A DNA stretch of 64,000 bases from Candidatus Altimarinota bacterium (GCA_028279865.1 JANQMV010000050.1:1-64000), one strand, 5' to 3'. Counted from the first letter of the stretch, positions 4,051 to 23,865 are shown. A program made the numbers and translations. The notes: a model not told the origin generated them from the letters alone.

Positions 4051-6348
4051 CTAGTTGGTATGATCTACTTCGTGTTTACAGACGCTACATTGATTGACTT
4101 TCTTGTTTTTTTCAGTCATCAAGCCTCCACACTCCGGACACTTTTCTTTAATTGGTCTGTTCCAAATTGCGTATTTACAGTCAGGATAGCGCTCACAACT
4201 AAAAAATAATTTTCCTTTTTTAGAGTGTCTCTCGACAATATCTCCCTTTTGACAATCGGGACACTTGACTTTTGTTGAAACGATAATTGGCTTAGAACCT
4301 TTACATTTTGGGTAATTTTCACAGGCTAAAAATTTGCCGAAACGTCCTGAACGTACAACCATTTTTTTGCCACATTTCGGACATTTTTCATTGGCATACT
4401 CTTGGGCAAGCTTTTCTGCCGCCTCAGCATCTTCATTTAAGGGTCTGGCATTTTTACAATTTGGATATCCTGAACAAGACAAGAATTTTCCAAAACGTGA
4501 AAGCTTGATGACCATAGGCTCTCCGCATTTTTCACAAATTTCATCAGTTTCTTCATTGACAATGTCCTGCTTTTGCACTGTTTTTGTTTTTTCAATTACT
4601 AATTTTTCAAAAGGATCGTAAAAGCTGCGCAGCCAAGGTATCCACTTTACTTTTCCTTCGGCAATTTCATCCAGATGGTTTTCCATCTTAGCGGTGAAAT
4701 GTACATCGACAATGTCGTTAAAATGTTTTTCCAAGACATCTGTTACCACAAATGCAGTGTCTGTTGCTTTGAGTTGTTTTTCTATTTTTTCGACATAACC
4801 GCGAGATATAATTGTGGTGATGGTGGGAGCGTATGTTGACGGTCTGCCAACACCTTCTTCTTCCATCTTTTTTACTAAAGAAGCTTCCGTGTAACGAGCA
4901 GGAGGCTTGGTAAAATGTTGTTTTGATTCTAATTTTTCCAATCCGAATTCTTCGCCAATTTTGACGGCAGGTAGAATTTTTTCGGTGTAAGTGTTTTTTT
5001 TGTTATCATGATCAGTACCTTCTAGGTAAACTTTCATAAAACCATCAAAAAGAATTGTTTGACCGTTTGCACGAAAAATATATTCATTTTTTAAGCCTTT
5101 TTTTTCTGCTTTGACGTCAATGGCAACACGTTTAAATTTGGCTTGTGCCATTTGTGTTGCCAGAGTTCTTTTCCAGATTAATTTATAAAGTTTCAATTCA
5201 TCAGTTTCCAAATACTTTGTTACTTGCTCAGGAGAACGAGTAAGGACAGTTGGACGAATCGCTTCATGAGCTTCTTGCGCTCCTTTTGTTTTTGTTTTGT
5301 ATTTTCTTGATTTTGGAAGTGTATATTCCTTACCATATTTTTTTTCGATGACTATTTTCGCTTCCTTGATTGCAGTGTCCGATAAATTGACAGAGTCTGT
5401 ACGCATATAGGTTATTAGACCGGAACTTCCTTCATCTCCCAAATCTTTACCTTCATATAATTTTTGTGCAACCATCATGGTTTTTTTCACAGAAAACCCA
5501 AGTTTACGAGCAGCTTCTTGCTGTAATGTTGAAGTTGTGAAGGGAGGAGCGGGATTTTTTTTAACCTCTTTTTCCGTTGTATTGTTCACAATATACTTGG
5601 CCTGTTCAATCTCTTTAAGGACTTTATTTGTTTCTTTTTTATTCGTTAATTTGGCTTTTTTACCATTAATTTTGTTTAAATCAGATTCAATTAAGAAAGA
5701 AACTTTGTTCTTTTTGAAAAATGCTTTGATATCCCAGTACTCTTCCGGCTTAAAAGCTTTGATTTCCTTTTCCCGATCAACGACAAGCTTAACAGCTGCA
5801 CTTTGTACTCGCCCTGCTGAAAGTCCGAAGCGAATTTTTGACCATAAAAAAGGTGAGAGTTTGTAACCGACCAGCCTGTCTAAAATACGACGTGCTTGCT
5901 GAGCATTGACTAAATCAGTATCTATCTTGCGTGAATTTTTAAGTGAATTTAAAATTGCACTTTTGGTTATTTCATGAAAAACAATTCTTTCTACCTCGTT
6001 TGTTTTTTTAGGTTTTAGAATTTCTAATAAATGCCAGCCGATTGCTTCTCCTTCACGGTCCTCATCCGTTGCGATCCAGATTTTGGTGTTTTGATCCATT
6101 AAGCTTTTTAATTTCATTACTTTTTTCTTTTTCGCAGGTGTAATGACATATAATGGTTCAAAATCTTTTTCAACATTAACCCCTAGTGTAGCGTAACTAA
6201 GTTTTTGTTGTGTTTTTGGAAGGTCAGCTTTTTTGTTAGGTAGATCACGTACATGCCCATTGGAAGATTCAACGGTATAAGCTTTTCCTAAAAATTTTTT
6301 GATAATTTTGGCTTTTGTGGGTGATTCAACAATAACGAGATTTTTCAT
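4051..6348 (-). CDS. topA: DNA topoisomerase I
   Basis: TOPRIM (IVESPTKAKIIKKFLG), active site region GLITYMRTDSVNLS, several C-terminal CxxC zinc ribbons. Confidence 0.97.
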   Translation of the reverse strand: MKNLVIVESPTKAKIIKKFLGKAYTVESSNGHVRDLPNKKADLPKTQQKLSYATLGVNVEKDFEPLYVITPAKKKKVMKLKSLMDQNTKIWIATDEDREGEAIGWHLLEILKPKKTNEVERIVFHEITKSAILNSLKNSRKIDTDLVNAQQARRILDRLVGYKLSPFLWSKIRFGLSAGRVQSAAVKLVVDREKEIKAFKPEEYWDIKAFFKKNKVSFLIESDLNKINGKKAKLTNKKETNKVLKEIEQAKYIVNNTTEKEVKKNPAPPFTTSTLQQEAARKLGFSVKKTMMVAQKLYEGKDLGDEGSSGLITYMRTDSVNLSDTAIKEAKIVIEKKYGKEYTLPKSRKYKTKTKGAQEAHEAIRPTVLTRSPEQVTKYLETDELKLYKLIWKRTLATQMAQAKFKRVAIDVKAEKKGLKNEYIFRANGQTILFDGFMKVYLEGTDHDNKKNTYTEKILPAVKIGEEFGLEKLESKQHFTKPPARYTEASLVKKMEEEGVGRPSTYAPTITTIISRGYVEKIEKQLKATDTAFVVTDVLEKHFNDIVDVHFTAKMENHLDEIAEGKVKWIPWLRSFYDPFEKLVIEKTKTVQKQDIVNEETDEICEKCGEPMVIKLSRFGKFLSCSGYPNCKNARPLNEDAEAAEKLAQEYANEKCPKCGKKMVVRSGRFGKFLACENYPKCKGSKPIIVSTKVKCPDCQKGDIVERHSKKGKLFFSCERYPDCKYAIWNRPIKEKCPECGGLMTEKNKKVNQCSVCKHEVDHTN

Positions 6349-7067: not shown

Positions 7068-9734
7068 ATGATGAATACGAAAAATAAAATTTGTTTGCTA
7101 GTACTTTTTTTGCCCTGTTTTGCATTAATGTTAATTTTTACTCTTAAGGCAGAGATGGTCTTGGCTGATTATCCCACTGTTGTTACGCTTGATTGTAATG
7201 ATACGAGTGTTGCAGCTGGATGGTATAAAAGCTATGGAAACAGGTGTGGCGATATAGGGGGGCTTAATTATTGGAATGCATCGATTCTTAATGACGGAGA
7301 GAGTAATGCATATGGTGCTTTTTTAGATTCTTATAAGAGAGATTGTTGTAATGCTTTAAACCTTGGTACTAGTAGTCAGTGTGGAGACGAGGCATATCGT
7401 AATGCATTGAATATTGATATTGAACAATGTAATGATGTCGCATTGTGTAACCCGGGAGATGATTATATCGCACAAACTACAACGTGTGCTGAGGAAAAAG
7501 AAGACATGCTTCTTGTTTGTGATGATAATTTACAAACAAATCAAAATTTTCGTTGTGGTGTTTTTTGCGGCGGTTTTCAGGAAACAGTTGATTGGAATGC
7601 GTATAATGAAAATGAGTGTGCTCCTGAATCGGCTAACTGAGTCGTATGTAACTTTGCTCAAGCAGGCGATTATCAGTTTACAGCAACTCCACGTAATGTT
7701 TTTTCTGAATGCAGACAGACAACATTTTCCATTTCCGTAGGATCGTGATCGGGAAACGGAGGCAGTAGTTCGTGAGGTAACACTTCTTCTTGTAGTTCGA
7801 GTAATTTATCGTCTTGTAATAGTTCGAATTGTGCAGGTGCATGATGATATTGGTGCACAAGTAGTAGTAGTTGCGTTGCTTCTTCTTCTAATTGTTCAAA
7901 CACTTCTTCTTGTAGTTCGAGCAATTTACCATCTTGTGATAGTTCGAATTGTGCAGGTGCATGATGATATTGGTGTGCAAGCAGCAGTAGCTGCGTTAGC
8001 TCTTCCTCTGATTGTTCAAATGCAAGTTCTTGTGATTCTTCCAATCATTCAGCTTGCGTGAACCAAACAACGTGTGAGAATGCAAATGGTTATTGGTGTA
8101 CAGATTCTGATCCGGACAGCTGTGTTGCAGCTCAGGCAAATTGTACTACCACTGCTTCTACTCAACTTGATATTTCTTGTACTCCAAGCAGCGTTGGTGC
8201 AGGTGATTCTTTTTCCTGTCAAGAAAATAGTGATCCAAAAATTCCCGTAGCGTGGTCATTTAACGGGACAAATGCCGCCAAAGATTGTGCAGATGATTCA
8301 ACGCTTTTGACTCAAAAAACCTGTATAGTTGATGACAATTATGGAGATGGAACAATCACAGTAACTGCTGAGGCAAATTGATATACGGCTGCGAACGCTC
8401 AGGTCGTTGTAACAGAGAGAAGTTTGTCTGATTTTAGTATTACCTGTGATAATGACAAAAAAGAAGGTAAAGCCTTTACATGTTCATCAACATGTTGAGG
8501 CACGGCAGAACCTGTAACTTGGAATACCACAGAGTGTGAAACATGACCTGCGACAACGACTTCATGTACTTTTAACAGTAAAGGAGGAAAAACAATTTCC
8601 GTAACTCCGAGTGATCCAAGCTCAGATTGTCAGGCAACAGATTTGTCGATATCGATTTCTGAAGCAGAGCCTGCAGAAATTACTTGTACGTGACCTTACT
8701 ATATTAACGAACCTTTCTCATGTAGTGTAAAATGTGAAGATCAAGACGTAACAGGAACTTGGTCTATTACATCGGCTGGTACGAGTTCGTGTTCTCCTAC
8801 ATCGGGAACCTCAACACAGTGTGTAACAGATGCTGCAGCAACAGTGAGCGTTTCAGGTGCAGACAGTTGTGCAAGTATTTCAGAGTCTATCTCGTTAAGT
8901 TATCATGATTTAGCTTTGACTTGTAGTCCGACAAAAATTAATGTAGGTGAAAATTTTGCCTGTAATGCTTCAGGTGGAGATCAAAAATATCAGTGGTTTT
9001 TTCCTTCAACTGTTTCAGAGTCTTCAGGATCAACAAATGCTTTAAAAAATCTTAGCGTATCGATTAATTCACCAAATGAATATCCGAATGATGGAAAGAT
9101 TATTGTGAAAGTTCAGGATGGTTTAAATAATATAAAGGAAGTTGAACTGGAGCTTGCGCCTCCTGCAGTAGATATAAATGCTATTTATACGATAGGTAAC
9201 GCAGGTATTACAGTTTGAGCAACAGAGGATGTTTATGTCGAACTAAATGCAATTGGAGGAGTTTGAGATATTAATTCAATTCAAGCAAAATTGATTCAGG
9301 GAAGCTGTTCAAGTGTGGGTACTTGTAATTGAAGGCAGGTTTTTAATTTAGTAAATGAAAAATTAGAATTAGAAAAATCAACAACCAGTTCGTCAGGTAG
9401 TAATATTTTTAATTTGCTTTACAAGCTTTCGGTTTTGACACCGGACTATGAAGAGTTGGTTAATGGTAATTATACTTATGAAGTGACTGTTTATGATATT
9501 TACAATCAACAATCGGTTGCTTATTTGCAAACATACATTGGTATTTTGGTAGATGGTGATATTAATGGAGATCAAAGTGTCGATATCTTGGATATTGTGA
9601 AGACTGTGATGTATTACTTAAACCCAACTGAAAAACCGACTCCACAAGAAATAGCGGCAGTTGATTTTAATAACAATCAACAAATTGATTTGGTTGATGT
9701 GATTAGAGTAATTCAAGAATGAATGAAAAATTAA
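7068..9734 (+). CDS. Secreted Cys/Ser-rich multidomain protein with C-terminal dockerin-like domain (read with UGA=Gly; ~888 aa)
   Basis: ORF pieces 7068-7640, 8058-8381, 8844-9218, 9414-9722 share one frame and are broken only by TGA (about 15), ending at TAA 9732-9734. N-terminal signal/TM. C-terminus DGDINGDQSVDILDIVKTVMYYLNPTEKPTPQEIAAVDFNNNQQIDLVDVIRVIQE matches the duplicated dockerin I Ca-binding pattern. Confidence 0.85.
7779..8138 (+). repeat. Three tandem ~120-bp (40-aa) Ser/Cys-rich repeats within the coding region
   Basis: Units begin at about 7779, 7899 and 8019: NTSSCSSSNLSSCNSSNCAGA[UGA][UGA]YWCTSSSSCVASSSNCS; third unit diverged (…CENANGYWC…). Confidence 0.85.
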
Positions 9735-9753
9735 TAAAAATAAATTCAATAAA

Positions 9754-12700
9754 ATGGAAAATCCAATAAAAACAGGTATAAAAGAGCGCAAAAAATTTTT
9801 TGTAAGGACTTGACTTTGATTAGGAGTTTTAGCAAGTATTTTTTTGCTTTCAATCTTTTCTCTAAATTCAGATCTACTTCAGGGAGATATTTTTCAAGGT
9901 GGTTCTTCCAAAACAGACGCTTTTTATATTCCTGATTATCCGGCAAATGCTGGTGATTGAGGCGATATCCAAGTGGTTTCAACTAATGCGATTAATAATT
10001 TTGCGGGTTTTAGTTTTACACTAGTTTATAATGCAAATAAAATCTCTATTCCTGATAATGCTGTTACTGCTTGAGGGCTTGATTTTGTGAATTCAAAGAA
10101 CATTTCTCCGGGAAGACTTAAAGTTGTGGGTGCAAGCGGAAAAATAAATGGGGTTAGTCTTGCTGCCGGCAGTGATTTAGTTACAATTAATGAATTAGCT
10201 TTAATACCTAGCCTTGCAGATGGTGAAGTTTTAGATTTGAAAATTGAAGATTTTGAGCTTGTCAGATCTGTTTCTGGAACATTAACTTCAGAAAAGAATC
10301 TGCAAATTAATGCCGGTAAAATTACAATTGGTTCAGCTTGAGACTTGCAGCTACTTTCAGCAACACCTGTTGATAATATGACGGTTAAACTCACTTTTTC
10401 TGATTATATTACCAATATAGGTAGTTTTAATTTTGATAACGGATTGCTGCAAAACTCCGCAAGCATTGATAATCAAGATGGAAAATCAATTTTGGTAAAA
10501 ACATCATTGCAAACACAGTGAACTTTGTATGAAGTAGTTGCTTCCGGAAGTATGGGAAATGTAGAAGGTTCACTTTCTACGAATAATAAGGCTTATTTTA
10601 CGGGAATTGGTTCAATTACGCTTGCTTCGGATTTTGACCTTAATTCGGCTGTTGCGAATTCGGGAACAGGCATTTCTTTAAATTTTTCTGACGCTATTTT
10701 AGACGGCTCTGTTTATAAAAATGCTTTTAACCTTAATGAAACAAATACGGCAAACAATTTAGCGATTTATTCTGTAGAGAAATCACCAACGAATAGTAAA
10801 ATTGTTAATCTTTTGCTGACAGGCAGCACGATTTTGGATGGTACAAAGAATTATCAAATTACAGTTTCAAATTCCGGATTGGCAACTGATTTACGTCGCC
10901 AAAAAGATAATGCTTTTTTAGGTAAAAATATTATTACATTCCCGGGTTATGCGACATGATCAACGGCTGATCAATTTAGTGTTGTATCGGCAAAAGCGGT
11001 TTCTATAAACCAAGTTGAAGTTAATTTTTCTGAAAATTTATCTGCCAATACGGTTGATTCGAATGATTTTGAGATTTTAGGTGAAACAATTAACGCTGTT
11101 TGAATTCCGTATAACGGTAGTTATCAAAACGTACTTTTAACCCTTTCGGGAAGCTTAGCCTCCGGTCAATATTATACTGTAGTTGTGAATGATACCCAGA
11201 ACGGAATTTCCGCCTACTCGGGTAACGCTTTAAGCTCAGATAATACTACAACGTTAGTAGGTTATGGTACGCATACAGATACAAGTACTTTGGCACTATT
11301 GAGTGCAGAAGCAGTTTCACCAACTAAAATAAATCTAAATTTTAATCAGGCACCTCTTGCGTCTGATATGATTCCGGTAAATTTTGAGATTCTTCCTACT
11401 TTGACGATTACGGATGTTTCAGTTAACGGAAAGGTAGTTTCTTTGACTACTGCTGTACAAGCGGAAGAAGCTTTATATACCATTGTTGCTCGTTCAGATA
11501 AGATAAAAGATCAAGGTGGACTTCTAATTTCCGCCCAAAATACAACGACAGTAAATGGCTATCTTGCGAAGAATCCGGTCATTGATTCTGTTACACCAAA
11601 TCAAATTGTTAATGATGAGGAACATACAATTTTGATTGCTGGTAGTAATTTTGAAAATGGTACGAAAGCTTACTTAAATACACTAGAATTAGCAACAACG
11701 GTTCAATCCGGTCAAATTAAGGTTGTAGTTCCCGCTGAGACACTGGCTGGTGTTTATAGTCTTATCTTGAAAAGACCAAATGGAGAACAACTGGAGTTTG
11801 CAAATGCTCTTGTGATTGAAGATCCGGAACAAAATATTTTGGTACTTTCGGATGAGTCATATGCAAGCCCAAAGCTTGTACCAAATGATGGAGAAACACC
11901 AACAACTCTTTGGGTAAGAATTTCTGATCCAAAAGGGGTTAGTGATATTGACAAGGTTTTTCTTGATTTGAGACCCTTGGATGGTAATCCAGCAGCTGTC
12001 ATGCAAGCTGGTAGTGTCGTAGATACAAAGCGTTGGTTTAGTTTGGAAGTAAAAGTTCCAAACACTGTAACAACTTCAGCAACACCAATTCCAATTGAGG
12101 TGACAGCGCAAAATAAATCTGGTGATAAGGCTTTTGGTACTGTCAGCCTAATTGTTAATAATGATATTACCACCAGTATTGCTCCTGTGGTTGAGCAAGC
12201 TTATTCAACACCAAGTATTTTACGACCTGGTAATGAAGAAGAGATTTATTTTTACGCTTATGTAACTGATGCAGATTGAGCCAATACAATTAACACAGTT
12301 GTGATTAACCTTGGTCCCATTGGAGGAGCTCCTATGTTAATGGAGCCGGTTACTTGATCAAATAATACAAATTCAAATTTAAATAATCAGGAAGCAGATA
12401 CTTCAACGACGCCTTTTAGTTCATATTTTAGGAAGGATTCTTTAATTAAGCAGATTCTTCCGAAGGCATCTGCATCTTTCTCTGCTCCAACTTCAAATGG
12501 TCAGTGGTATAAGACTACTGAAGCCTTCCAATTACCTAGTAATATGCGAAAATGATCTTATAACCTTGAAGTTACAGCGACAGACAATACAGGGGTAACA
12601 GGAACATTGACTTTCACAGCCAAAACTTCCGTGAGTCAAAATAAACCTTTTATTGATGAAGATAAAGTTTATGTGACGCCAAGAGAATCTATTCCAAATG

Positions 12701-14295
12701 ATGACAAAACAACTTTTGTTATTCATGCTTACGTGGAAGATCCCGATGGTCTTGATGATATCGCTTCTGTGACACTTGATTTAGAGGAGATTAACTTACC
12801 GCCTGCAACAATGACAACAGAAGCAACGAGTGGTTTGTGAGGATGGTATAAAACGGCAGAATTAAAAATACCAGCCGAGGTGATTAGGGGAGTTAAGACT
12901 TTGGATCTTTATGCACGTGATAAAGCCTGAGCGGAAGGAGAAGCAAGTTTAGACATTAGAGTAACCAATTTTGATGAAGTGGGAGATGCTCCTGTCGTAA
13001 ATGTAGGTAGATCCTATACTTCTCCAAACGTAGCAATTAATGACGAAGCAACTAAATTAAGCCTATATGCTTATGTTTCTGATAAAGATGAGGATGTTGA
13101 TTATGTTATGGCAAATTTAACAAATGTTGCCCGTTATACAGGTCCGTCGAGAAATACACGTACCAATAGTGGTAGTAATAATTTGGATTACTATGATTAC
13201 ACAATAAGTAATGAAGATCAAAACCCTTGTGAAACAAATTCTGATACGATTTTATGTATGTTTCCAAGTGTTCAGGAAGGCAATGATGGTCGTTGGTTTG
13301 TTTTGAATGATGTAGTCGTTTTAGAAGAAGCTGCTCCAAGTATCGAACCATATCGTATTTGGATAACTGCTGTTGATAAAACAGGCAAATCAACTAAAGG
13401 ACATATCAATATTAACGTAACTGACGGGAAGACTCCGCTTGAGCAAATTTGAACACCAACATTGCAGCTTGCCTCTTCGACAAGTTTAAATTCCGTAGAA
13501 ATTTTGCTTTCAAATCCAATTGATTGATCAAATTTGAGTAGGACAGGCAAGGAATTTAAAATTACTGAAAAGAGTAATACTTCTGCAGAGCTTAATGTTG
13601 CAAGATCTGTGATTAATACAGAAGGCAATATTATAACCCTGACAACTTCTGATCAAGTTGCGGGTACTAGTTACACGGTTATTGCCGATGCGGAAAAATT
13701 GGGACTTAAAAATAACCAAGCTTCAGATACTTTGGCTGATTTTATCGGTTTTCAGAAAATTTGAGTTGAGCCAAAAGTAGATTTGGTAAGCTCAAATTCT
13801 TCCTATTTGGTTGAGGTAATTTTTAACAAGCCAATCAAACCAACATCAGTTAATCCGGATGGCTCTGATTTTGAGATTTTTACGATTGACGGAGGTGCGG
13901 AAAAATTAAAAACAATTCGCGCAAAAATTATAGATCAGCAGACTGTTTTAGTTACAACAGACGCTCAAATTTCTAATAAAAAGTACAGAATAAATATTAA
14001 AAATATTGAAAGTGCCGCAGGCAAACAAATAAGACAGATAGGGCTAACTTCAATGTTTAAATGATTTCAAAATATAGTGCATGAATCTTCAGAACTTCAA
14101 GTGCAAGCTGATTTTAATGGTGACGGTAAAGTTGATTTTACTGACTTTACGATGTTTTCAGCTGTATACGGATGAATGTGGAGTTCACTTAAGTCAGGAG
14201 ATGTGACTACTTTGGATGAAGTTGTGGAAAATTCAGGTATTCAACCGTCTTATAATCCAACTGAAACAACAACACCAGTACCATTGACAGAATAA
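9754..14295 (+). CDS. Large secreted protein with cohesin-like domain, Ig-like/IPT-TIG repeats and C-terminal dockerin-like motif (UGA=Gly; ~1513 aa)
   Basis: ORF pieces from 10087, 10525, 11185, 12607, 12979, 13534 and 13783 share one frame with only TGA (about 18) between them; terminal TAA 14293-14295. IPT/TIG: NPVIDSVTPNQIVNDEEHTILIAGSNFENGTKAYLNT...; dockerin-like DFNGDGKVDFTDFTMFSAVYG. Confidence 0.85.
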
Positions 14296-14325
14296 AATAC
14301 ATAAAAAATTAATAATTTTAAAAAA

Positions 14326-14490
14326 ATGGAACAGAAAAATTTTTTAACAGATGCCGAGCTGACACTTATGCGTGAATGCGCTCAATTGCCACAAGATAAA
14401 ATTCTTGCTGGTGATATTGGTGCTTTGCGTAGATTGATTGAGACTACTTTGGGTAATAAGGCTCGCTTAATTAATTGTAAATTCAGATAA
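14326..14490 (+). CDS. Small hypothetical protein (54 aa)
   Basis: MEQKNFLTDAELTLMRECAQLPQDKILAGDIGALRRLIETTLGNKARLINCKFR, TAA stop, fits between flanking genes in the same orientation. Confidence 0.5.
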   Translation: MEQKNFLTDAELTLMRECAQLPQDKILAGDIGALRRLIETTLGNKARLINCKFR

Positions 14491-14491
14491 T

Positions 14492-15052
14492 ATGAACAAA
14501 ACCTTTGCCTTCATCATAGGCTTAATCATCTTATCAAGTTGCGCTTTGCAAGAAGCTGAGCAAAGACCTTCGGCAGAAATAGTAGATAAGATTAAATCTG
14601 CGCAGAAAATTGACAAAAGTATTGAGTTTAAATTAACAAAAACAAAAATTACTCCGAAAACTTTTAGAGTTAGTCTTGATTTAAGTAATCCGGAAAAAAG
14701 AGAAATTAATTCTGTTAGGACGTGGCTTTCTTATAATCCGGAAGACTTAAAAATTATCAAAATTGAGACTCAAGACTCGGATTTTAATTTAGCGGCTCCG
14801 GGCGAGAATGAATATGATGCTGAAGCAGGTTTAATCAAAATTGGCAGAAGTCAAACCAATGGAGTTAGACAAAAATCAGAAATGAAAGTAGCTGAAATTA
14901 TGCTTGAAAAAACTCAAACAGGTTCTGTCATTCTTGATTTTTATAATTATCATGAAAATCAAGATGGTCATATCAATGCGAATATTTTATTTGAAGGAAG
15001 AGTTTATAATTTGGCAGCAAAACCAGACTCACCGGGACTCATCATTGAATAA
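14492..15052 (+). CDS. Lipoprotein with cohesin-like domain
   Basis: Lipobox-like IILSSCALQ; cohesin-type pattern TFRVSLDLSNPEKREINSVRTWLSYNPEDLKIIKI...VAEIMLEKTQTGSVILDF. Confidence 0.7.
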   Translation: MNKTFAFIIGLIILSSCALQEAEQRPSAEIVDKIKSAQKIDKSIEFKLTKTKITPKTFRVSLDLSNPEKREINSVRTWLSYNPEDLKIIKIETQDSDFNLAAPGENEYDAEAGLIKIGRSQTNGVRQKSEMKVAEIMLEKTQTGSVILDFYNYHENQDGHINANILFEGRVYNLAAKPDSPGLIIE

Positions 15053-15105
15053 ATTTAATAAATAAAGATTTGCGAATTTCTAAACTAAAAATTAACTTTT
15101 AAAAA

Positions 15106-16224
15106 ATGTTAAAAAACAAAATAAAATTAGGTTTAATTGCAATTGTATTTTGATTTTTTGTAAATTGATTTCAAAATCTAGCTTTGGCTGCAATAGCTGA
15201 TACGACATTGGAAATTAGAGATAGATGTAATGAAGGTATACAGTGCCCTGCTCCTCAAATTACAGGCTCTCAAATTAAGTCAGTCATTGGTCGTAATTTT
15301 GAGACGGAATTCAACCTTGATATTTATATTAAAAACCCTTCAAGGCAGGAGGTTATCTCTGCACAAACTTGGTTGGAGTATGATAAGTCCAAACTACAAG
15401 TTGCAAAAATTGATGTTTCAAATTCAGCTTTTGATTTTGTTGCACCCGGAGAAAACCATTTTGATAATGCGGAGTGATTAATTAAAATCGGTCGTTCTGC
15501 AATTGGTACGAAAGCCAATTCGCAAGAAATTTTTGTGGCGAACATAACCTTTAAAGTTATTACAAAAAATTTAGGAACAGCTTTGCTAAAATTTCATGAT
15601 TATCAAATCGGTGAATCCGGACATACTAGTGTCAGAGTAATGGAAGATAATTTTCCGGTTAATGTTTTGGCCAATGAACCGAAATATTTTGTCGTGCCGG
15701 TGAATCAATCCGGAAATTTTACCGATGAAAATAATACCAATCAATCTGATACTGGTTCCCAAGATCAGCCGAATGTTACCCCTCTTACACTAACTCGTCC
15801 GACAGGTTTTAAAGCAACTACCGGAAATGGATATGTTTTCTTGATTTGGGATAAAAGTGAAGATTCTAGCTTAAAGGGATATAATCTTTACTATTCAACT
15901 ACCAGTGGTCGATATTTACAAAGACGTCCGGTTTGAAATGTCAATCAATACGAAATGAATAATTTGGAAAACGGCAAAACCTACTATTTTGCAATTACCG
16001 CCTATGATCAATTCGACAGAGAAACAGATTACTCCAATGAAGTACGTATTACAGTCGGCGATCCGAATTCCTCTAGTAATCCAATCTTAATTTCGCGTGA
16101 TGATTATTTAACAAAAGTTCCGGAGCAACCTCAAAATGGTCCTGCTGTAATTTTTATAATCACGCTTTTGGCTCTAATCTCCAGTTTCATTTTCTTAAAA
16201 CTCAGGAAAATACACGCTATTTAA
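15106..16224 (+). CDS. Secreted cohesin-like + fibronectin III protein with C-terminal TM anchor (UGA=Gly; ~372 aa)
   Basis: Pieces 15184, 15535 and 15955 in one frame broken only by TGA; FnIII motif PTGFKATTGNGYVFLIWDKSEDSSLKGYNLYYSTTSG...LENGKTYYFAITAYDQFDRETDYSNEV; C-terminal TM + LKLRK. Confidence 0.8.
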
Positions 16225-16249
16225 AAATCTAATAATTAATAAAAATAAC

Positions 16250-17041
16250 ATGTCAAATCCTCTTGATGATCAAAAAAAAGAAAAAAATACCCCTTGGACA
16301 ATGGTCTGAGATGACGGTGGTGAAATAAAAAAATCTGTTGTAAATAATTCAAAAGAAATTAAAACAGCGGAATGAGAATGAAAAAAACTAAAAGTTTTGC
16401 CATACGTTTTCACAGCTTTAACTTTTTTATTAATTTTTTTCTTTAGTAATCAATTTGAAAATTTGGGTGCGGATTTATTTACCAGTGGAGCTTGAAAAGA
16501 CGTACGTTTTGGTATCCCCGTCACGAGTAATCCTTTGCAAGAAGGTCTTTTAGAGAATTGAAAAACTGACGAAGTATCACATACCGGTTCATTGATTCAA
16601 GATCAAGAAAATTCAGATACTGCACATAAACAAGAAAATGTTGAGCAAGAAACTCAATCAATTGAAGTTATTCCACAAGTAGAAGTTCCGCTGGCACAAG
16701 AAGTTTTTGTTGAACCGATTCAAAATAATGCCAATCTTATTCCTGAAAATTTACATACAGCGGCATCGACTGAAAAACAAAATGATGCAAATTCAAATTC
16801 AGCCTTTCGTCCGAATGTTCATACTTATGACAAAGTTCCCCAAGTTCAAGTTTCAGAAAATTTACAAACTTTGCAGCTGGAAAACTTGCATGCTTCTGCT
16901 CCCGTTTCTGTGGATCAGAAACGTGAAATACCTAAGCCACAGCAAAACGTACAATCTGGTCCGGAAGAGAATTTAGTTGTTTTGCTTACTTTGTGTTTCG
17001 CTAGCGTGGCTTGGTTCTTAATGCGTAGAGTACGGGCGTAA
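16250..17041 (+). CDS. Membrane protein with N- and C-terminal TM segments (UGA=Gly; ~263 aa)
   Basis: MSNPLDDQKKEKNTPWTMV[G]DDGGEIKKS..., joins ORF 16592-17041 in frame through TGA only; C-terminal VVLLTLCFASVAWFLMRRVRA. Confidence 0.75.
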
Positions 17042-17055
17042 ATTAAAGGAGCAGT

Positions 17056-17919
17056 TTAATTAAGCAAACAACCTCCTTGGCATTTTTTGATCAATTTGCA
17101 AGTTTGGCAATTTGCAAAGGGTTGATTTGCTTGTACAGATTTTTGTTGATACTGAAGTATTTTTTGACTGAGTTGAAAGAGGGACGAGGATTTTTTAAAG
17201 TCAAAGTTGTGCGTGTGTTTTTCACAAAATGTTAATGTTTGACCATTATGATGAAAGGTTGGCATAAAGACAGGGCAATCAAAGCAAGAATTTATTGTTT
17301 TGTATTCTTTGGGAACATTCAGGCAGAGAGGGGTTGGTATTCTTAAAATTCTGCTTTTATCGCTTATACCAAAAAAGTTTGACTGTTTGATAGTTTGTAA
17401 AATATTTTGTTGAAAATTTTCTAAAGTGCTTTTTGGTAAAATAATCCCTCTTGGCTGAATTTTTAATTCCAAGTTAAGTTTTTGAGCTAATTTTTTGATT
17501 AGATTGACTTCATTTTCAGAGTCTTGAGGATGAAAACTAAAGCGTAGATTTATGTTGATATGACTGATTTTTTGATATTGCCTGATATTGTTTTCAATGT
17601 TTTTTCTATTTTGAGGAGATTCTAGATATTTTCTTAAATTAACTTCTAGATTGGCAGGATAGTAGAAATTCTCTACTAAAGTTTCACCCTCTGTATAAAG
17701 AACCGCTTTAATTTTTTTTTGCTTCAAAAAATTTAAGGCATCTAAAATCCCATACCAACTTAAAGCTTTAGCTGAAAAAAAAATTTTTTTTAATTTGTGT
17801 TCCAAGCTAACCCGATCAACTATATTGAAAAAATTGTGTAAATTAAGTACATCTTTTGTAGATTGTCCTTTTGTTAAAATTGAAATAACTTCAAAAAATT
17901 TATATTTCATTTTTTTCAC
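17056..17919 (-). CDS. SPASM-type Cys-rich protein; radical-SAM-like barrel lacking the N-terminal CxxxCxxC
   Basis: C-terminal CQTCKLIKKCQGGC motif plus CFDC...FCEKH; barrel-like stretch LSWYGILDALNFLKQKKIKAVLYTEGE; no canonical CX3CX2C found. Confidence 0.55.
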   Translation of the reverse strand: MKKMKYKFFEVISILTKGQSTKDVLNLHNFFNIVDRVSLEHKLKKIFFSAKALSWYGILDALNFLKQKKIKAVLYTEGETLVENFYYPANLEVNLRKYLESPQNRKNIENNIRQYQKISHININLRFSFHPQDSENEVNLIKKLAQKLNLELKIQPRGIILPKSTLENFQQNILQTIKQSNFFGISDKSRILRIPTPLCLNVPKEYKTINSCFDCPVFMPTFHHNGQTLTFCEKHTHNFDFKKSSSLFQLSQKILQYQQKSVQANQPFANCQTCKLIKKCQGGCLLN

Positions 17920-17940
17920 ATATTAATTTCTCAGCTTTAA

Positions 17941-17980
17941 GTAAACTAAAAAAATATTGTACAATATTTTTTTAGTTTAC
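17941..17980. promoter_or_regulatory. Perfect 40-bp palindrome (operator or AT-rich terminator)
   Basis: gtaaactaaaaaaatattgtacaatatttttttagtttac equals its own reverse complement. Confidence 0.7.
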
Positions 17981-18011
17981 GTGTTGGAAAACATTAGCCT
18001 TAATGCAAGGT

Positions 18012-19691
18012 TTAACTTTTTAATTTTTTAAGTAGGAGAGAAAAAAGCAAGATTATTAGCCCCACCATTAAGATTAATAAACCTGTTTTTAACAAGTTTT
18101 GTTTTGCTAAATTTTCTATTTTTTCTTCTTTCTCATCACTTGAACTAAGATTGTTAGTTTGTTTTTCCATTAATTCTTGATCTTCGTCTTGTGCGTTAGT
18201 TTCATCTTCTAAGGGCGTGCTTAATTTTTCTACGACTTCAATTTCAAAACTATCTAACAGAAATCTGTCATCTTCGTTTTGTCCCCAAATTTGTAGGCTA
18301 GCCTTTGTTATATTTGTTCCTGTTCCGCTAAGAATGAGGTTGTCAGTATCAACTGAGAGCCATTCCGGCAGTGGTGATCCATCTTCTAAGGTAACTAAAT
18401 ATTTTTGATAACCACCGGGAATTTCGTAGGTAAAGAATTCTGCTTGTTCGATTTTTATTCCTTTTTTAGGCTTTTGTACGATAGGCAAAAACTGTTTAAA
18501 ATCTTGATAACCTCCTTCTGCCTTCGTTTTTAGTTCTTTTTGAAAGGTCTCAGGGCTGTTGGCAAGCTCTGTCTCTAAATAGGTTTGAAATTGCTTGATT
18601 TGTTCCCTGGAATAATCTTTGTCATTTGCTTCTATGAAAAAATATTCGTATCGAGCGATATTACGAGGCTGTTTGAAGTAATTTTTAATCTCCAGTTTGT
18701 CTAAATTAAGTTCGTCCTCATATCTAAAAAATTGAATCCATTCAAGCCAAGTCAGTTCTTCTTCTTCATTGTTGGGGAAAATTTTATTCGCCAGACTGAT
18801 TGTTTTTTCAAGCATTTGCTGCTCTTTGAAAAGCATATCCATAAAAACAGCATGCCTATTCCATGCGAAATAAGTATGCGTAAAAATAGAACCATTTATA
18901 AAAATCGGCTTGATACCTGTTGGTATTTGATTGGATATTTCAATCACGGCATTTTCATCTTCAAAAATTTTTTCAAAACTTTCCTTTGCTTTGCTTTTTG
19001 CGTACAAATTTGCAGCAATTTCTTGGAAGGTAGTCCAAGCTTCCAAGCTTGCTTCAATCAAAGTATGAACATTGTATAATTGTTCTAACTCGGGGTTTTC
19101 CGGAAGAATAAAAAGACTTTTTTTGCTAAACAAATCCAGTGCATTTTTATCTCGAATTGTTTTTTCAATATAAACTTCTTTGTAATTGTTTACTGTTTTA
19201 ATCTCAAAGACATTGGGAGAAGCAACCATGGCAAAATCTCCTTTTTCAAGGTTGTCTAATTTTTTTTCTGTCAACGGTGTATAGGTTGTTGCGTAGCAGT
19301 AGAGAAATGAATTTTTTTGATCCGTTTCCAGGCTTTGGGTGCCAAGCTCAAGACTGTGTATCTTTTGTTCGGTTAAGCCTGAGTCAAACAAGTTATAAAC
19401 ATTAAAGATATCTTTTAAGTTTAAATTACTTTCAGTTCCTTGAGTGATTTTTTTGGTTTTTATATACTTATCATCAAAATATGTCATTAAAAGGGGGTCA
19501 ACACTGGATGAATGTGTTTGTGCTTGTGATGAAAAATCAGAAGAATCAAAATTTTCTGTTTCCAAGGGGTATTGTTGAATTGAGTCTGTTAATTGCTCAA
19601 GACAATTTGCTTCCATAGTTTTTGCTGCATTTGCATAAGGGAAACCGAAGACCAAAAGAGAGATAAAGGTCAGAACAAGTTTTAATTTCAT
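18012..19691 (-). CDS. Secreted/membrane-anchored protein with putative Ig-like domain
   Basis: Signal peptide MKLKLVLTFISLLVFGFPYANAA; He_PIG-like LPEWLSVDTDNLILSGTGT; C-terminal TM LLKTGLLILMVGLIILLFSLLLKKLKS. ORF opens at 19724 but internal Met at about 19691 is the better start. Confidence 0.65.
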   Translation of the reverse strand: MKLKLVLTFISLLVFGFPYANAAKTMEANCLEQLTDSIQQYPLETENFDSSDFSSQAQTHSSSVDPLLMTYFDDKYIKTKKITQGTESNLNLKDIFNVYNLFDSGLTEQKIHSLELGTQSLETDQKNSFLYCYATTYTPLTEKKLDNLEKGDFAMVASPNVFEIKTVNNYKEVYIEKTIRDKNALDLFSKKSLFILPENPELEQLYNVHTLIEASLEAWTTFQEIAANLYAKSKAKESFEKIFEDENAVIEISNQIPTGIKPIFINGSIFTHTYFAWNRHAVFMDMLFKEQQMLEKTISLANKIFPNNEEEELTWLEWIQFFRYEDELNLDKLEIKNYFKQPRNIARYEYFFIEANDKDYSREQIKQFQTYLETELANSPETFQKELKTKAEGGYQDFKQFLPIVQKPKKGIKIEQAEFFTYEIPGGYQKYLVTLEDGSPLPEWLSVDTDNLILSGTGTNITKASLQIWGQNEDDRFLLDSFEIEVVEKLSTPLEDETNAQDEDQELMEKQTNNLSSSDEKEEKIENLAKQNLLKTGLLILMVGLIILLFSLLLKKLKS

Positions 19692-19730
19692 AATTTTTAT
19701 TTTTAAAAATATTTTTAATAACACATTTTT

Positions 19731-20075
19731 CTATGCTCCGTCATCGTCATCACCATCATCATCACCACAATCATCATTAATCCAGCGACAATTACAATCA
19801 CAGTCAGAGACATTAACAGTTCCTGATTTGACCCATCGAGTATTGTTATTCGCGAAAGAAACATTTCCTCTTGGTCCCGGAATACAACTCCATCTCGCAG
19901 AGGCTTCAGGGATTATTTTGCTAATGATAGCTTCGTTCAAGCTCGCAAATTTTTCTAATGTCCCTCCGGCTAAAAATGCTGAAGCGACACCAACGGGAGC
20001 AGTCAGTAAAAAGGAGATTACAGGAATATACTTTGATTTTTGCTCTTTTTTTTCTACTATCTGTGTATTTGTCAT
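19731..20075 (-). CDS. Small peptide with hydrophobic N-terminal part and Cys/Asp-rich C-terminus (candidate modified-peptide precursor)
   Basis: ...SDCDCNCRWINDDCGDDDGDDDDGA C-terminus; located between a secreted protein gene and a HemN-like radical SAM gene. Confidence 0.6.
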   Translation of the reverse strand: MTNTQIVEKKEQKSKYIPVISFLLTAPVGVASAFLAGGTLEKFASLNEAIISKIIPEASARWSCIPGPRGNVSFANNNTRWVKSGTVNVSDCDCNCRWINDDCGDDDGDDDDGA

Positions 20076-20184
20076 GATTAGCTTGGATTATTGAAACAGC
20101 TATTTTTCTAAATCCTAAATTATTGTTTATTAATAAACAAATTTTTTAAATTGATATAATATTAGGATGTGTTCTTGTAAAAAA

Positions 20185-21468
20185 TTATAATCTTAAAAGA
20201 ATCTCATCCTGTGCCTCTTTTGAGTAAAGATAGATAAAAGTTAAAATGAAATAGTTAATTTGCTGATTTTTTGTTTTAAAGGGCAGTATTTCGTTGTATT
20301 CCGGAGAAATTGAAATTAAGTTATTTTCTATGCTGATATATTGACGAATGGGCTTTACAACTTCCCAAAAAAGTTTCTCTCCAAAAGTTTCTTTTATTTT
20401 GGTAAAAGGTATTTTTGGAAAATGTAAATGTCTGATTAAGATTCGTTTTAGGGATTCTTTTTTTGAAAGAGAATAGTGGTTGTATATTTCTTGGTTATTT
20501 GTCTGAACCTTTTGTTTATATTCACTGTGGCTTTTTGGTTGGCTGCGAATTTTGGTATATTGACCATTGTTCCATAAATATGAGGATGCGCGATAACCTA
20601 TTGCCAAAATGTTTTTTAATTCCAGCCATTTATAGCGCCAGTATTCTGAATCTCGTTTTGGTTTCAATTTATTTAATTCGTACGATTGTGCAATTTTTTC
20701 CGGGTATCTGTCATAATGCTGTAGTGGTATAACCGAAACAGTATTGGGTTTGAGTTTTCTTAGATGTACCAGAGTGTCTTTTAGAAAGTCATCTTCAGTT
20801 TCATTAGGCACTAAGTCATACAGCAAATCAAAGCTAATAAATTGAATACCAGCTTGCCTAAGCCATTTTACCGCATTGTAAACATCTTTGATTTTTTGTG
20901 GTCGCCGAACTTGCTTTAATTTTTCTTCATTAAAACTTTGCACTCCTAAATAAATCCTATTAACTCCTGATTCGGATAATGTTTTTGCAATTTTTTTATC
21001 AATACTGTAAGGCGTAGCTTCTAGGGAAAAAGTAGTGTTTTTTTTAATTTTGAAATTTGTAAAAATGTGATTAATTAATCTTTTTAACTCTTTGGCACCT
21101 AGAATTGTCGGAGTTCCGCCTCCCATGTAAACTGAAAGAACTTTATTTTTTTTGGGAAAATCTTTTAGAATCCAGTTTATTTCTTGGATCAGACAATCTA
21201 CATATTCTTTTGCTCCAAAGGTTTGTATGTGTGGTCCATTGTAAGTACAGTAGGCACATTTGCTTATGCAGAAAGGTACGTGTATATAAAGGGAAAAATC
21301 ATGCGCCTGTTTGATGATTTTTTTTCTAACCTGAAAAGAGTTTTCAGATGATTTACTTAAAATAGATTCAACATTTTTGGGAGGATAATTAAGGTGCCAC
21401 TTGGAAGTTTCGCCAAGCATTGGTAGCTTTTGTGCAATGGTGTTAAATTTTTCTGAAAACCACCACAA
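20185..21468 (-). CDS. HemN/HemW-like radical SAM protein
   Basis: YIHVPFCISKCAYCTYNGPH (CX3CX2C), MGGGTPTILG, NRIYLGVQSFNEEKLKQVRRPQ. Confidence 0.85.
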   Translation of the reverse strand: MWWFSEKFNTIAQKLPMLGETSKWHLNYPPKNVESILSKSSENSFQVRKKIIKQAHDFSLYIHVPFCISKCAYCTYNGPHIQTFGAKEYVDCLIQEINWILKDFPKKNKVLSVYMGGGTPTILGAKELKRLINHIFTNFKIKKNTTFSLEATPYSIDKKIAKTLSESGVNRIYLGVQSFNEEKLKQVRRPQKIKDVYNAVKWLRQAGIQFISFDLLYDLVPNETEDDFLKDTLVHLRKLKPNTVSVIPLQHYDRYPEKIAQSYELNKLKPKRDSEYWRYKWLELKNILAIGYRASSYLWNNGQYTKIRSQPKSHSEYKQKVQTNNQEIYNHYSLSKKESLKRILIRHLHFPKIPFTKIKETFGEKLFWEVVKPIRQYISIENNLISISPEYNEILPFKTKNQQINYFILTFIYLYSKEAQDEILLRL

Positions 21469-21666
21469 ACGATCTGGATTGATGTATTGCTCCCAGTGTT
21501 TTTCTGCTAAAGGATTTGGAATATTTTATCTTTAAAGCATAAAAAAGTAAGAACCTTTTGTTTTATTATAAAATCAATTTTTGATTTAATAAACGTAAAA
21601 TGATTTTAAAAAACATCGTTGTCGTTTAAAATAAACAAAAATATACTTAGAATTACTGTATTCAAA

Positions 21667-23865
21667 ATGCTAAAAATTAAGTTTCAACTTCTTACAAGTT
21701 TTGTTTTTGTGTTTTTGTCTGGTGCTTTTTTTGTGCCAAAAACTTTAGCTGCTACCTATAACTATAACCCTTCCGGAGCAGGTAGCTTTAATTTTTCACA
21801 ACCGGGAATTAACACTGTCCGTGCTTGTAATTTAGATGGTATTTGTAATAGTACAACCTTTTATATTGATAATGCTGCACCAAATTGCGGGAGTATAACT
21901 CAGCAAGTTTTGCCCGGAGGTTCTGTTGAGGTGACAGTGCCTTGCTCTGATGCGCACTCCGGTTGTGTGCAGAATGTCTATAAACAGACTTATTCTGCAA
22001 ACGGAAATAAAAGTATTACAATTAGTGACAAAGTCGGTTATACAAGAAATTGTTCTTTTTCCGTTACTGCCGTTGATAAGACACCGCCTAACTGTGGGAC
22101 AATTACGAAAATACCGACAAGCTGGACGAGCGGTTATGTAACCGCAACAGTGCAATGCGTGGGCTCTGATTGCCAAAGACCTAATTATAGTACTACATTT
22201 ACTGCAAATGGTACGAAAAACATAACGATACAAGATCATACCGGCAACTCAAGAAGTTGTGCTATTTCCGTTTCCAATATTGATAGATATGCGCCAAGCT
22301 GTGGTGCGGTGAGTCGTAGTCCCTCCTCATGGACATCTGGCAATGTTTTTGCGGCATTAAGTTGTTATGACACGGGAGGATCGGGTTGCCAACAATCGTC
22401 TTATGGATCAACTTTTTATTCAAATGGTGCGAAGTATGTGACGATTAGGGATTATGCTGGAAACAGTAGAACTTGTGGTATTTCTGTTTCTAACATTGAT
22501 AAAACAATGCCGGTTTGTTCAAGAACACTCATTCCGAGTTTTTGGACTAATACTGATGTGACAGCTGTGGCAAGCTGCAGTGATACACCATCTGGCTGTC
22601 AGCAATCGGTACAAAGTCGTTTGGTTAGTTCAAACCAGACGGTCCCATTTAATATTCGAGATCGTGCAAACAACACGACTTCTTGTAATGTAAATGTTTG
22701 GAATATTGATAAACAGAGACCAACGTGTACAACTTCTTTTTTAACAACAATTAATTCTCTTGGTTGGTCTAAAGAAGCGGTGGTTGCTCAGGCTAAATGC
22801 AGTGATACAGGTAATTCTAATTGTAAAAGCGGTCAGAATTTAACTACAACGATTACAAAGCATAATTCAAACCACACTTTTAGTGTTTCAGATAATGCTA
22901 ACAATACTAATACTTGTACAACAAGTACTGTTAAAATTGATCGAGATTCGCCAAAATGTGATTTTGAGGGGACGGGTTGGGTGACTTTACCTGCCAATGT
23001 TACCCCAAACTGTAACGATACTGTTGTGCAGACTTCAAACAATGGTGTTTCTGGTTGTAAAGCTGTCGAAGATTTTGATATTGAACGAGTCTCGGAAATA
23101 TCAAAGGTTAAAGTAGTCGATAATGCTGATAATGTGTCTTATTGTAAGGAGGAGGATTTAATGGTTCATTATGTCGAAATTAGAGGAACACAAGGAGGTG
23201 AAACCAATTCTGCTTTGAAGCAGACTCTGGCTAATAATATCAAGCAAAATGTGGCTGATTTAACTAGAAACGAATTGCCAAATTCAACTAATACAACTCT
23301 AAATTATAATTTAAATAATGGGACAATTGCCTATTATCAGGGTGATGTCCGTCTGAATGCTTTTGAAGTCAGTGGTAAGAAAACAATTATTGTTGAGAAT
23401 GGAAGTTTGACTTTGAATGGTAATGTCACTTATGACACAAATAGTATTTTGGGCATAATTGTGCTGGGGACTGCTAATAATGGCAATGTTACAATCTCAG
23501 CAAATGTTGACACTGTTCAAGCAATTCTTTTTGCAGAAGGAAAACTGATTAGTGAGGATCAAGATAGTGCGACCCAGCTTTATTGGAAAGGTAGTTTGAT
23601 TACGGATAATACAATTGGAGGGCATACACAAAATCCTCAAAAATGTTCCAACAAAACGACAAACTGTAATTCAAGCCAATCAAGAACCGATGATCTTAAT
23701 TACTTTAGAAGCTATCATCATTCTATTGCAGGTGCTGTTTCTTCAAGTGATCCGCAAAAAAGCAATGCTCCTACTATCATAGAATATGATTCAATGGTTC
23801 AGCAAAATACTCCATATGGGTTTGAAATGTCAGGAGAGTTTTCCCTTCAGGAAATTATTAATTAA
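21667..23865 (+). CDS. Secreted protein with tandem Cys-containing Ig-like repeats
   Basis: Signal peptide; repeated ~70-75 aa units (DKTPPNCGTITKIPTSWTSGYVTATVQC..., DRYAPSCGAVSRSPSSWTSGNVFAALSC..., DKTMPVCSRTLIPSFWTNTDVTAVASC...). Track start at 21619 is TTG; ATG at 21667 precedes the signal peptide. Confidence 0.75.
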   Translation: MLKIKFQLLTSFVFVFLSGAFFVPKTLAATYNYNPSGAGSFNFSQPGINTVRACNLDGICNSTTFYIDNAAPNCGSITQQVLPGGSVEVTVPCSDAHSGCVQNVYKQTYSANGNKSITISDKVGYTRNCSFSVTAVDKTPPNCGTITKIPTSWTSGYVTATVQCVGSDCQRPNYSTTFTANGTKNITIQDHTGNSRSCAISVSNIDRYAPSCGAVSRSPSSWTSGNVFAALSCYDTGGSGCQQSSYGSTFYSNGAKYVTIRDYAGNSRTCGISVSNIDKTMPVCSRTLIPSFWTNTDVTAVASCSDTPSGCQQSVQSRLVSSNQTVPFNIRDRANNTTSCNVNVWNIDKQRPTCTTSFLTTINSLGWSKEAVVAQAKCSDTGNSNCKSGQNLTTTITKHNSNHTFSVSDNANNTNTCTTSTVKIDRDSPKCDFEGTGWVTLPANVTPNCNDTVVQTSNNGVSGCKAVEDFDIERVSEISKVKVVDNADNVSYCKEEDLMVHYVEIRGTQGGETNSALKQTLANNIKQNVADLTRNELPNSTNTTLNYNLNNGTIAYYQGDVRLNAFEVSGKKTIIVENGSLTLNGNVTYDTNSILGIIVLGTANNGNVTISANVDTVQAILFAEGKLISEDQDSATQLYWKGSLITDNTIGGHTQNPQKCSNKTTNCNSSQSRTDDLNYFRSYHHSIAGAVSSSDPQKSNAPTIIEYDSMVQQNTPYGFEMSGEFSLQEIIN

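Follow-up and report, generated by a model that had tools for sequence, protein, structure and literature searches.

A candidate RiPP-like surface-peptide locus with radical SAM-family genes in a genome related to Candidatus Gracilibacteria

The locus described here is probably a reduced, lineage-specific member of a group of dispersed multi-radical-SAM, RiPP-like surface-peptide systems in Gracilibacteria. The general RiPP feature is present, namely a short precursor gene located beside genes for modifying enzymes, and this linkage is kept in other lineages. A RiPP-like cluster of unrecognised class had been proposed in a first-pass annotation of the same DNA; the peptide was indeed found with radical SAM (rSAM)-family genes in two genomes (G000 and G019), whereas the split SAM/SPASM layout and the four-gene unit included in that proposal were not upheld. 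The proposal is thus supported in part: what stands is a RiPP-like peptide-modification cassette for which the searched papers and family libraries give no description.

Gene organization of the locus

The window, which is the whole stretch of 64,000 nucleotides analysed, is contig C38 of a genome (G000) of 1.48 Mb, with a completeness of 95.8% and a contamination of 0.16%. The named relative in its class is Candidatus Gracilibacteria. Gracilibacteria have reduced genomes and tiny cells and are probably host-dependent, and the organism of G000 is probably tiny and episymbiotic. The four consecutive minus-strand genes that had been annotated were all recovered in place as ORFs; in the order of transcription, they encode a HemN-like rSAM protein, a 114-aa peptide, a secreted TM-anchored protein and a SPASM-type protein. 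The features are as follows.

20185..21468, minus strand: HemN-like radical SAM protein, 427 aa from TTG, start unsure, CX3CX2C intact (ORF, Pfam, trees)
19731..20075, minus strand: candidate precursor peptide P0001, 114 aa, ATG start (ORF and homologues)
19896..20075, minus strand: leader/export part of the precursor, residues 1-60, with predicted cleavage (sequence)
19734..19895, minus strand: putative core and tail of the precursor, residues 61-114 (sequence)
19788..19805, minus strand: D-C-D-C-N-C motif of the precursor, residues 91-96 (alignment of four homologues)
18012..19724, minus strand: secreted, C-terminally TM-anchored partner, 570 aa from GTG (ORF and family profile)
17941..17980, no strand assigned: perfect 40-bp palindrome between the partner and pseudo-SPASM genes, candidate terminator or binding site (sequence)
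17056..17919, minus strand: degenerate rSAM (pseudo-rSAM) P0003, 287 aa, SPASM CX2CX5CX3C intact (ORF, homology, motifs)

The partner gene begins 6 bp past the stop codon of the peptide gene. Given the palindrome, the 92-bp gap that contains it between the partner and SPASM genes, and the 109-bp gap between the HemN-like and peptide genes, one single operon is not certain. In a scan for promoters and terminators, matches were no more frequent than in shuffled sequences. No match above noise was obtained with a defence-system library, and the proteins of the loci that were scanned gave no Pfam match to PqqD/RRE, to a peptidase or to an ABC transporter. Divergently from the HemN-like gene, a 748-aa secreted protein is encoded at window 21619-23865 (plus strand); by eye, the C-terminal portion of this protein is similar to that of an 852-aa protein encoded close to the precursor in G007 (L069:4528-7086).

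The HemN-like radical SAM protein

The protein annotated as a HemN-like rSAM enzyme was confirmed to carry the CX3CX2C motif, in the form HVPFCISKCAYC, and matched Pfam Radical_SAM with E=6e-22. No Shine-Dalgarno-like sequence was seen at its TTG start (21468); the open frame extends upstream to 446 aa without an ATG, and an internal ATG is located at 21420. Only two PDB sequence matches were found, one of them NocN (PDB 9P2U, E=2e-14).

Conservation within the cluster is lowest for the HemN-like gene, which adjoins the precursor in one genome only. Of the predicted co-occurrence in related genomes, the part concerning the peptide, the partner and the pseudo-SPASM gene (three of the four genes) stood, and the part concerning the HemN-like gene fell; all four genes as a unit had to be given up, as gene order is kept only for those three and no HemN gene lies by the precursor in the paralogous locus (contig C41 of the same genome) or in G019. 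It is a serious possibility that this gene belongs to HemW/HemN-type housekeeping or metabolism, independent of the cassette that it adjoins. Besides its absence from the other two loci, it is the sole HemN/HemW-family gene found in G000, and in AU tests none of three alternative placements was rejected, with p=0.43 for kinship with HemW. On the other hand, the match to HemW (TIGR00539) reached 161.6 bits against a cut-off of 205.4 and covered residues 59-249 only, and in the free tree the protein was placed outside the HemW clade (support 99/98), on a long branch; the HN..YW segment conserved in HemW is missing, and a HemN-type N-terminal extension with an NYPP motif is present. Moreover, HemN-like rSAMs with the same YPP motif are found in tandem beside HxsA/HxsB in two genomes (G042 and G178). 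The grouping with housekeeping HemW that had been named as the critical point therefore received a divided answer, with the free tree, the bit score and the missing HN..YW segment on one side and the AU test on the other.

Giant clusters with at least 10 radical SAM genes, several of them HemN-like, were observed in TGA=Gly Gracilibacteria (L061, L062 and L063, in G125, G042 and G178, respectively), and those of G042 and G178 adjoin HxsA-like GSH-repeat precursors and HxsB. The tandem HemN-like rSAMs of all three share the N-terminal YPP motif with the window protein.

The precursor peptide family

The 114-aa peptide was found exactly as it had been annotated, with an ATG start. A diverged paralogue is encoded on contig C41 (42-48% identity; E=1e-14 by protein search and 6e-18 in a BLAST matrix run with SEG masking). 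Precursor similarity is otherwise inflated by the low-complexity tails. Homologues were found in two other genera, one (G019) by search and the other (G007) added by a three-sequence profile. With a paralogue in its own genome and homologues in two further genera, the peptide is more than a chance ORF.

Residues 1-60 of P0001 comprise a Lys-rich start, a hydrophobic segment (17-35), an amphipathic stretch and the AxA-like site PEASA, and a C-G-D/G-rich tail follows the DCDC region. The same plan is seen in the four DCDC precursors: the start is rich in Lys, a hydrophobic segment and a site of the A-x-A type follow (PEASA, PEVSA, PGAKA and PEAQA), and V-x-D-C-D-C leads into a low-complexity tail composed of Asp/Gly, poly-Pro or Gly. 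The V-x-D-C-D-C motif is invariant in these few sequences (4/4) and reads V-S-D-C-D-C-N-C in P0001. The family is rare, with convincing scores in 3 of the 242 genomes of the class. A profile search over 381 genomes of the phylum gave precursor matches in G000 and G007 and in no other lineage, P0001 found no relatives when it was searched directly against GTDB genome contigs, a phage search gave none, and no match was obtained in an NCBIfam scan.

In G019, the precursor is split by a mini-intein/Hint domain (CFVAGTKV...VVHN) at L059:9020-9790 (the same in L093:15996-16766). This domain stands exactly before CGDDDDDSDDDG, and the tail resembles CGDDDGDDDDGA of the window peptide.

The anchored partner protein

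The annotation of a secreted, TM-anchored protein agrees with the N-terminal hydrophobic segment and the C-terminal TM helix seen in the product of 18012-19724, which starts with GTG (an alternative ATG lies 11 codons in, at 19691). The partner family is present in five genomes (G000, G007, G019, G153 and G272), and in 5/5 loci a precursor-like gene immediately precedes it. The partner profile picked up a further copy in G272; a precursor-like gene was predicted directly before it and was confirmed afterwards. The homology between the window partner and that of G153 is clear (E=3e-17), and that with G019 is weak alone (E=0.003) and clear by the family profile, which includes these sequences. 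SLH domains are found on the partner in G019 and G007. The AlphaFold prediction for the partner had a pLDDT of 37 and was not usable.

Related loci and gene order

G019 (JAIPGZ010000003.1, Candidatus Gracilibacteria bacterium Tobar13.5m-G62) belongs to a different family of the class; there, genes for a secreted SLH-domain protein and then a pseudo-rSAM come next after the precursor, in the order of the window. Because the order of peptide, partner and SPASM protein recurs in this second family of Gracilibacteria, the cluster is no chance assembly. Upstream of the G019 precursor are genes for an rSAM/SPASM protein (343 aa), an HxsC-like rSAM (HxsC is its best family, with 58 bits against the 268 needed), a second rSAM/SPASM protein (286 aa) and a B12-binding-type rSAM, together with a phosphoribosyltransferase (PRTase)-beta-propeller protein, a TAT-type hydrolase and a YbaB-like protein. 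On contig C41, which ends in a poly-Pro tract at the paralogous precursor, this precursor is preceded by PRTase-propeller, rSAM/SPASM, HxsC-like rSAM, B12-like rSAM and YbaB-like genes. The YbaB-like small protein thus precedes the precursor in both loci. The three C41 rSAM enzymes carry CX3CX2C, and the cobalamin-binding DXHXXG motif was not found by eye in the C41 B12-like protein.

A wider set of relatives was found in G153 (TGA=Gly code), which encodes HxsB (489 bits, cut-off 370), HxsD (57 bits, cut-off 50), an HxsD-related protein and a precursor that matches HxsA3 weakly and has the tail ...GDGDGGDSCG, as well as a TM-anchored partner, an ACGX-like rSAM/SPASM, a PRTase-propeller protein and two B12-like rSAMs. 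Parts of this set are present again in the G261 and G272 loci. In an unclassified bacterium (L094:5125-16487, JAKQLJ010000028.1), a SagD-type YcaO (129 bits, cut-off 25.7) and a nitroreductase were observed with homologues of the cassette enzymes, namely a B12-like rSAM (47% to C41), an rSAM/SPASM protein and a PRTase-propeller protein (44% to G019), and a 97-aa Cys-rich small protein ends in GCDFVPCENLCEVTGVCDTCDGHEGSSSTSDSDY; this is apparently an undescribed hybrid TOMM/rSAM cluster. YcaO together with nitroreductase is a RiPP hallmark, so the presence of the enzyme homologues in such a cluster gives independent support for peptide modification.

The PRTase profile also matched three f7 genomes (G088, G094 and G110), which were set aside since the gene there lies outside any rSAM cluster; PRTase is therefore accessory and not specific to this system. 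In these genomes (L087, L086 and L085, respectively) the PRTase-beta-propeller gene adjoins a conserved multi-TM protein gene, not rSAM genes, and the PRTase-propeller family may serve several systems. Near a PRTase-propeller gene and rhodanese-like and multi-TM proteins, G097 encodes two small secreted proteins (L090:3009-3341 and 4451-4804) that have Gly/Asp/Cys tails. The Desulfovibrio-type rSAM matches L095 and L096 were rejected, with neither precursor nor PRTase nearby.

It is unlikely that the peptide and its partner stay unmodified and make up a two-component structure of the surface (a small adhesin, or an accessory of the S-layer, whose Cys/Asp tail binds metal) and that the rSAM genes are unrelated neighbours or act on another substrate. 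Such a structure would fit the SLH domains of the G019 and G007 partners, a precursor leader that is like a Sec signal and unlike a classical RiPP leader, and the G007 locus, in which a precursor and an SLH partner were found with no rSAM. However, precursor homologues adjoin rSAM-family genes in 3/4 loci (two in G000 and one in G019), and the fourth, that of G007, is cut by the contig end 111 bp before the precursor (no B12-like rSAM or PRTase was detected in this genome, which is 98% complete). Furthermore, related enzyme sets adjoin Hxs genes or YcaO/nitroreductase, which supports the RiPP-like reading.

The SPASM-type protein

The assignment of P0003 as a SPASM-type protein stood in part. 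The SPASM motif CX2CX5CX3C is present (C271, C274, C280 and C284), and P0003 is homologous to the rSAM/SPASM enzyme of the cassette (E=8e-10) and, via a profile of four sequences, to rSAM/SPASM peptide maturases of solved structure; its score against TIGR04085, in contrast, was 14.7 bits (cut-off 27), and it lacks CX3CX2C, the motif loop being deleted. Without CX3CX2C, the radical-generating cluster could not be bound in the usual way. The pseudo-rSAM at the same position in G019 (E=5e-12) likewise lacks the motif. The structure predicted for P0003 was confident only at residues about 25-160, an rSAM-type half barrel, and the best PDB fold match of the model was EpeE (E=3.7e-4, TM 0.44). Because of the homology to full rSAM/SPASM proteins, the missing loop and the same loss in the G019 counterpart, P0003 is, judged by its sequence, a degenerate pseudo-rSAM rather than part of an enzyme split in two; the split SAM/SPASM layout that had been proposed is thereby replaced by a degenerate rSAM closest to the cassette rSAM/SPASM and the G019 pseudo-rSAM. 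One further match to P0003 (G023, E=9e-4) was set aside, as its gene context gave nothing convincing.

It is quite improbable that the window locus is a decaying remnant with the functional copy on contig C41, as the missing CX3CX2C of P0003, the TTG or internal ATG start of the HemN-like gene and the palindrome inside the locus might indicate, given that all four frames are intact (287-570 aa, and 114 aa for the peptide) with no in-frame stop, and that the shared Cys loss in the G019 protein at the same position, together with the SPASM CX2CX5CX3C kept here, suggests a kept pseudoenzyme.

TGA codons in the adjacent surface-protein locus

Next to the cassette, the following ORFs are open only with TGA as a sense codon.

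7068-9734, 9754-14295, 15106-16224 and 16250-17041, plus strand: four surface/secreted protein ORFs under code 25

A total of 42 in-frame TGA codons was counted in these four genes (window 7068-17041), and the repeat context points to glycine (CAGAXXYWC vs NANGYWC). In other parts of the window, TGA is a rare terminal stop (lepA, homoserine dehydrogenase and others). G000 encodes RF2 (464 bits, cut-off 370; G000:C59:6984-8006), which is missing from three TGA=Gly relatives (G153, G042 and G079), and a 77-nt tRNA with the anticodon UCA (G000:C1:4485-4561, L233), which was called SeC by ARAGORN but is too short for SeC and has an acceptor that is Gly-like by eye. Either the 7068-17041 locus was acquired, perhaps recently, from a relative with TGA=Gly or G000 decodes TGA in two ways, and G000 is possibly an ambiguous intermediate of codon reassignment.

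Proposed maturation and significance

In the RiPP-like reading of the locus, the precursor would be bound in the cytoplasm through its N-terminal part, and P0003 may serve as a non-catalytic partner or scaffold. Radical chemistry would then take place on the C-terminal core around V-x-D-C-D-C, carried out by the HemN-like protein of this locus, by the C41 enzymes acting in trans, or by both. Sec would then export the peptide, cleavage would follow the AxA site (PEASA), and the product would be displayed on the surface with the TM- or SLH-anchored partner, with the acidic Asp/Gly tail as a putative flexible or metal-binding extension.

More tentatively, these loci might represent a new Gracilibacteria cell-surface RiPP class, defined by a Sec-type leader, a V-x-D-C-D-C core, several rSAMs plus a pseudo-rSAM/SPASM, and display by a co-encoded TM- or S-layer-anchored partner; if so, the G019 mini-intein before the Cys-Gly-Asp tail would add protein splicing to the maturation. 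Since these genomes are reduced and the cells probably host-dependent, the use of several rSAM enzymes for a single small peptide of the surface suggests an important process there, e.g. host contact. The C41 and G019 loci provide a named, testable enzyme set, and the conserved pseudo-rSAM by a RiPP-like precursor offers a test of degenerate rSAM/SPASM proteins as substrate chaperones.

Comparison with known systems

NocN, a RiPP rSAM of the HemN family (class C-like), is likewise a HemN-type rSAM beside a peptide gene; the match to it is distant and confined to the rSAM core (residues 54-229), and the window holds no thiopeptide-type precursor or genes. P0003 shares the rSAM-type half barrel and the CX2CX5CX3C SPASM motif with EpeE/YydG, SkfB and SuiB-type maturases, but unlike them it has no CX3CX2C. 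With the haloarchaeal pseudo-SAM/SPASM family TIGR04347, it has in common a pseudo-rSAM with SPASM features, which is a functional analogy only, as no match was obtained at E<=1. TOMM clusters combine a YcaO cyclodehydratase with a dehydrogenase; L094, with its homologues of the cassette rSAM and PRTase, has YcaO and nitroreductase, whereas no YcaO was seen in the window, C41 or G019 loci.

The closest comparison is with the His-Xaa-Ser (Hxs) system, for which the models comprise the HxsA precursor, the rSAM maturases HxsB and HxsC, and HxsD (TIGR03976-TIGR03978, NF038309). The likeness consists in a small precursor with a hydrophobic N part and a repetitive or low-complexity C-terminal tail, and in several adjoining rSAM genes. 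The DCDC loci and the HxsB-bearing G153 and G272 have in common the partner family, the PRTase-propeller, the B12-like rSAM and the ACGX-like rSAM/SPASM. P0001 differs from HxsA in having no His-Xaa-Ser repeat, and the precursor profile aligned to Gracilibacteria HxsA with an hhalign probability of 0.4%. HxsC (TIGR03977) was the best match of the 335-aa C41 rSAM, yet with 42.6 bits against a cut-off of 267.9, and no HxsD was recognised among the ORFs of the window and C41 loci. HxsB (TIGR03978) was above the cut-off in six TGA=Gly relatives and had no match in G000, G019 or G007. The literature search found no description of the present system and mentions of Hxs in passing only, and in the papers searched there was no experimental product of Hxs-type cassettes. 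Because G000 is without HxsB and the precursor is not detectably HxsA, the window locus looks like a relative of Hxs-type cassettes and not a member, apparently an undescribed offshoot, by which the undescribed DCDC precursor family is now linked to cassettes of the Hxs type.
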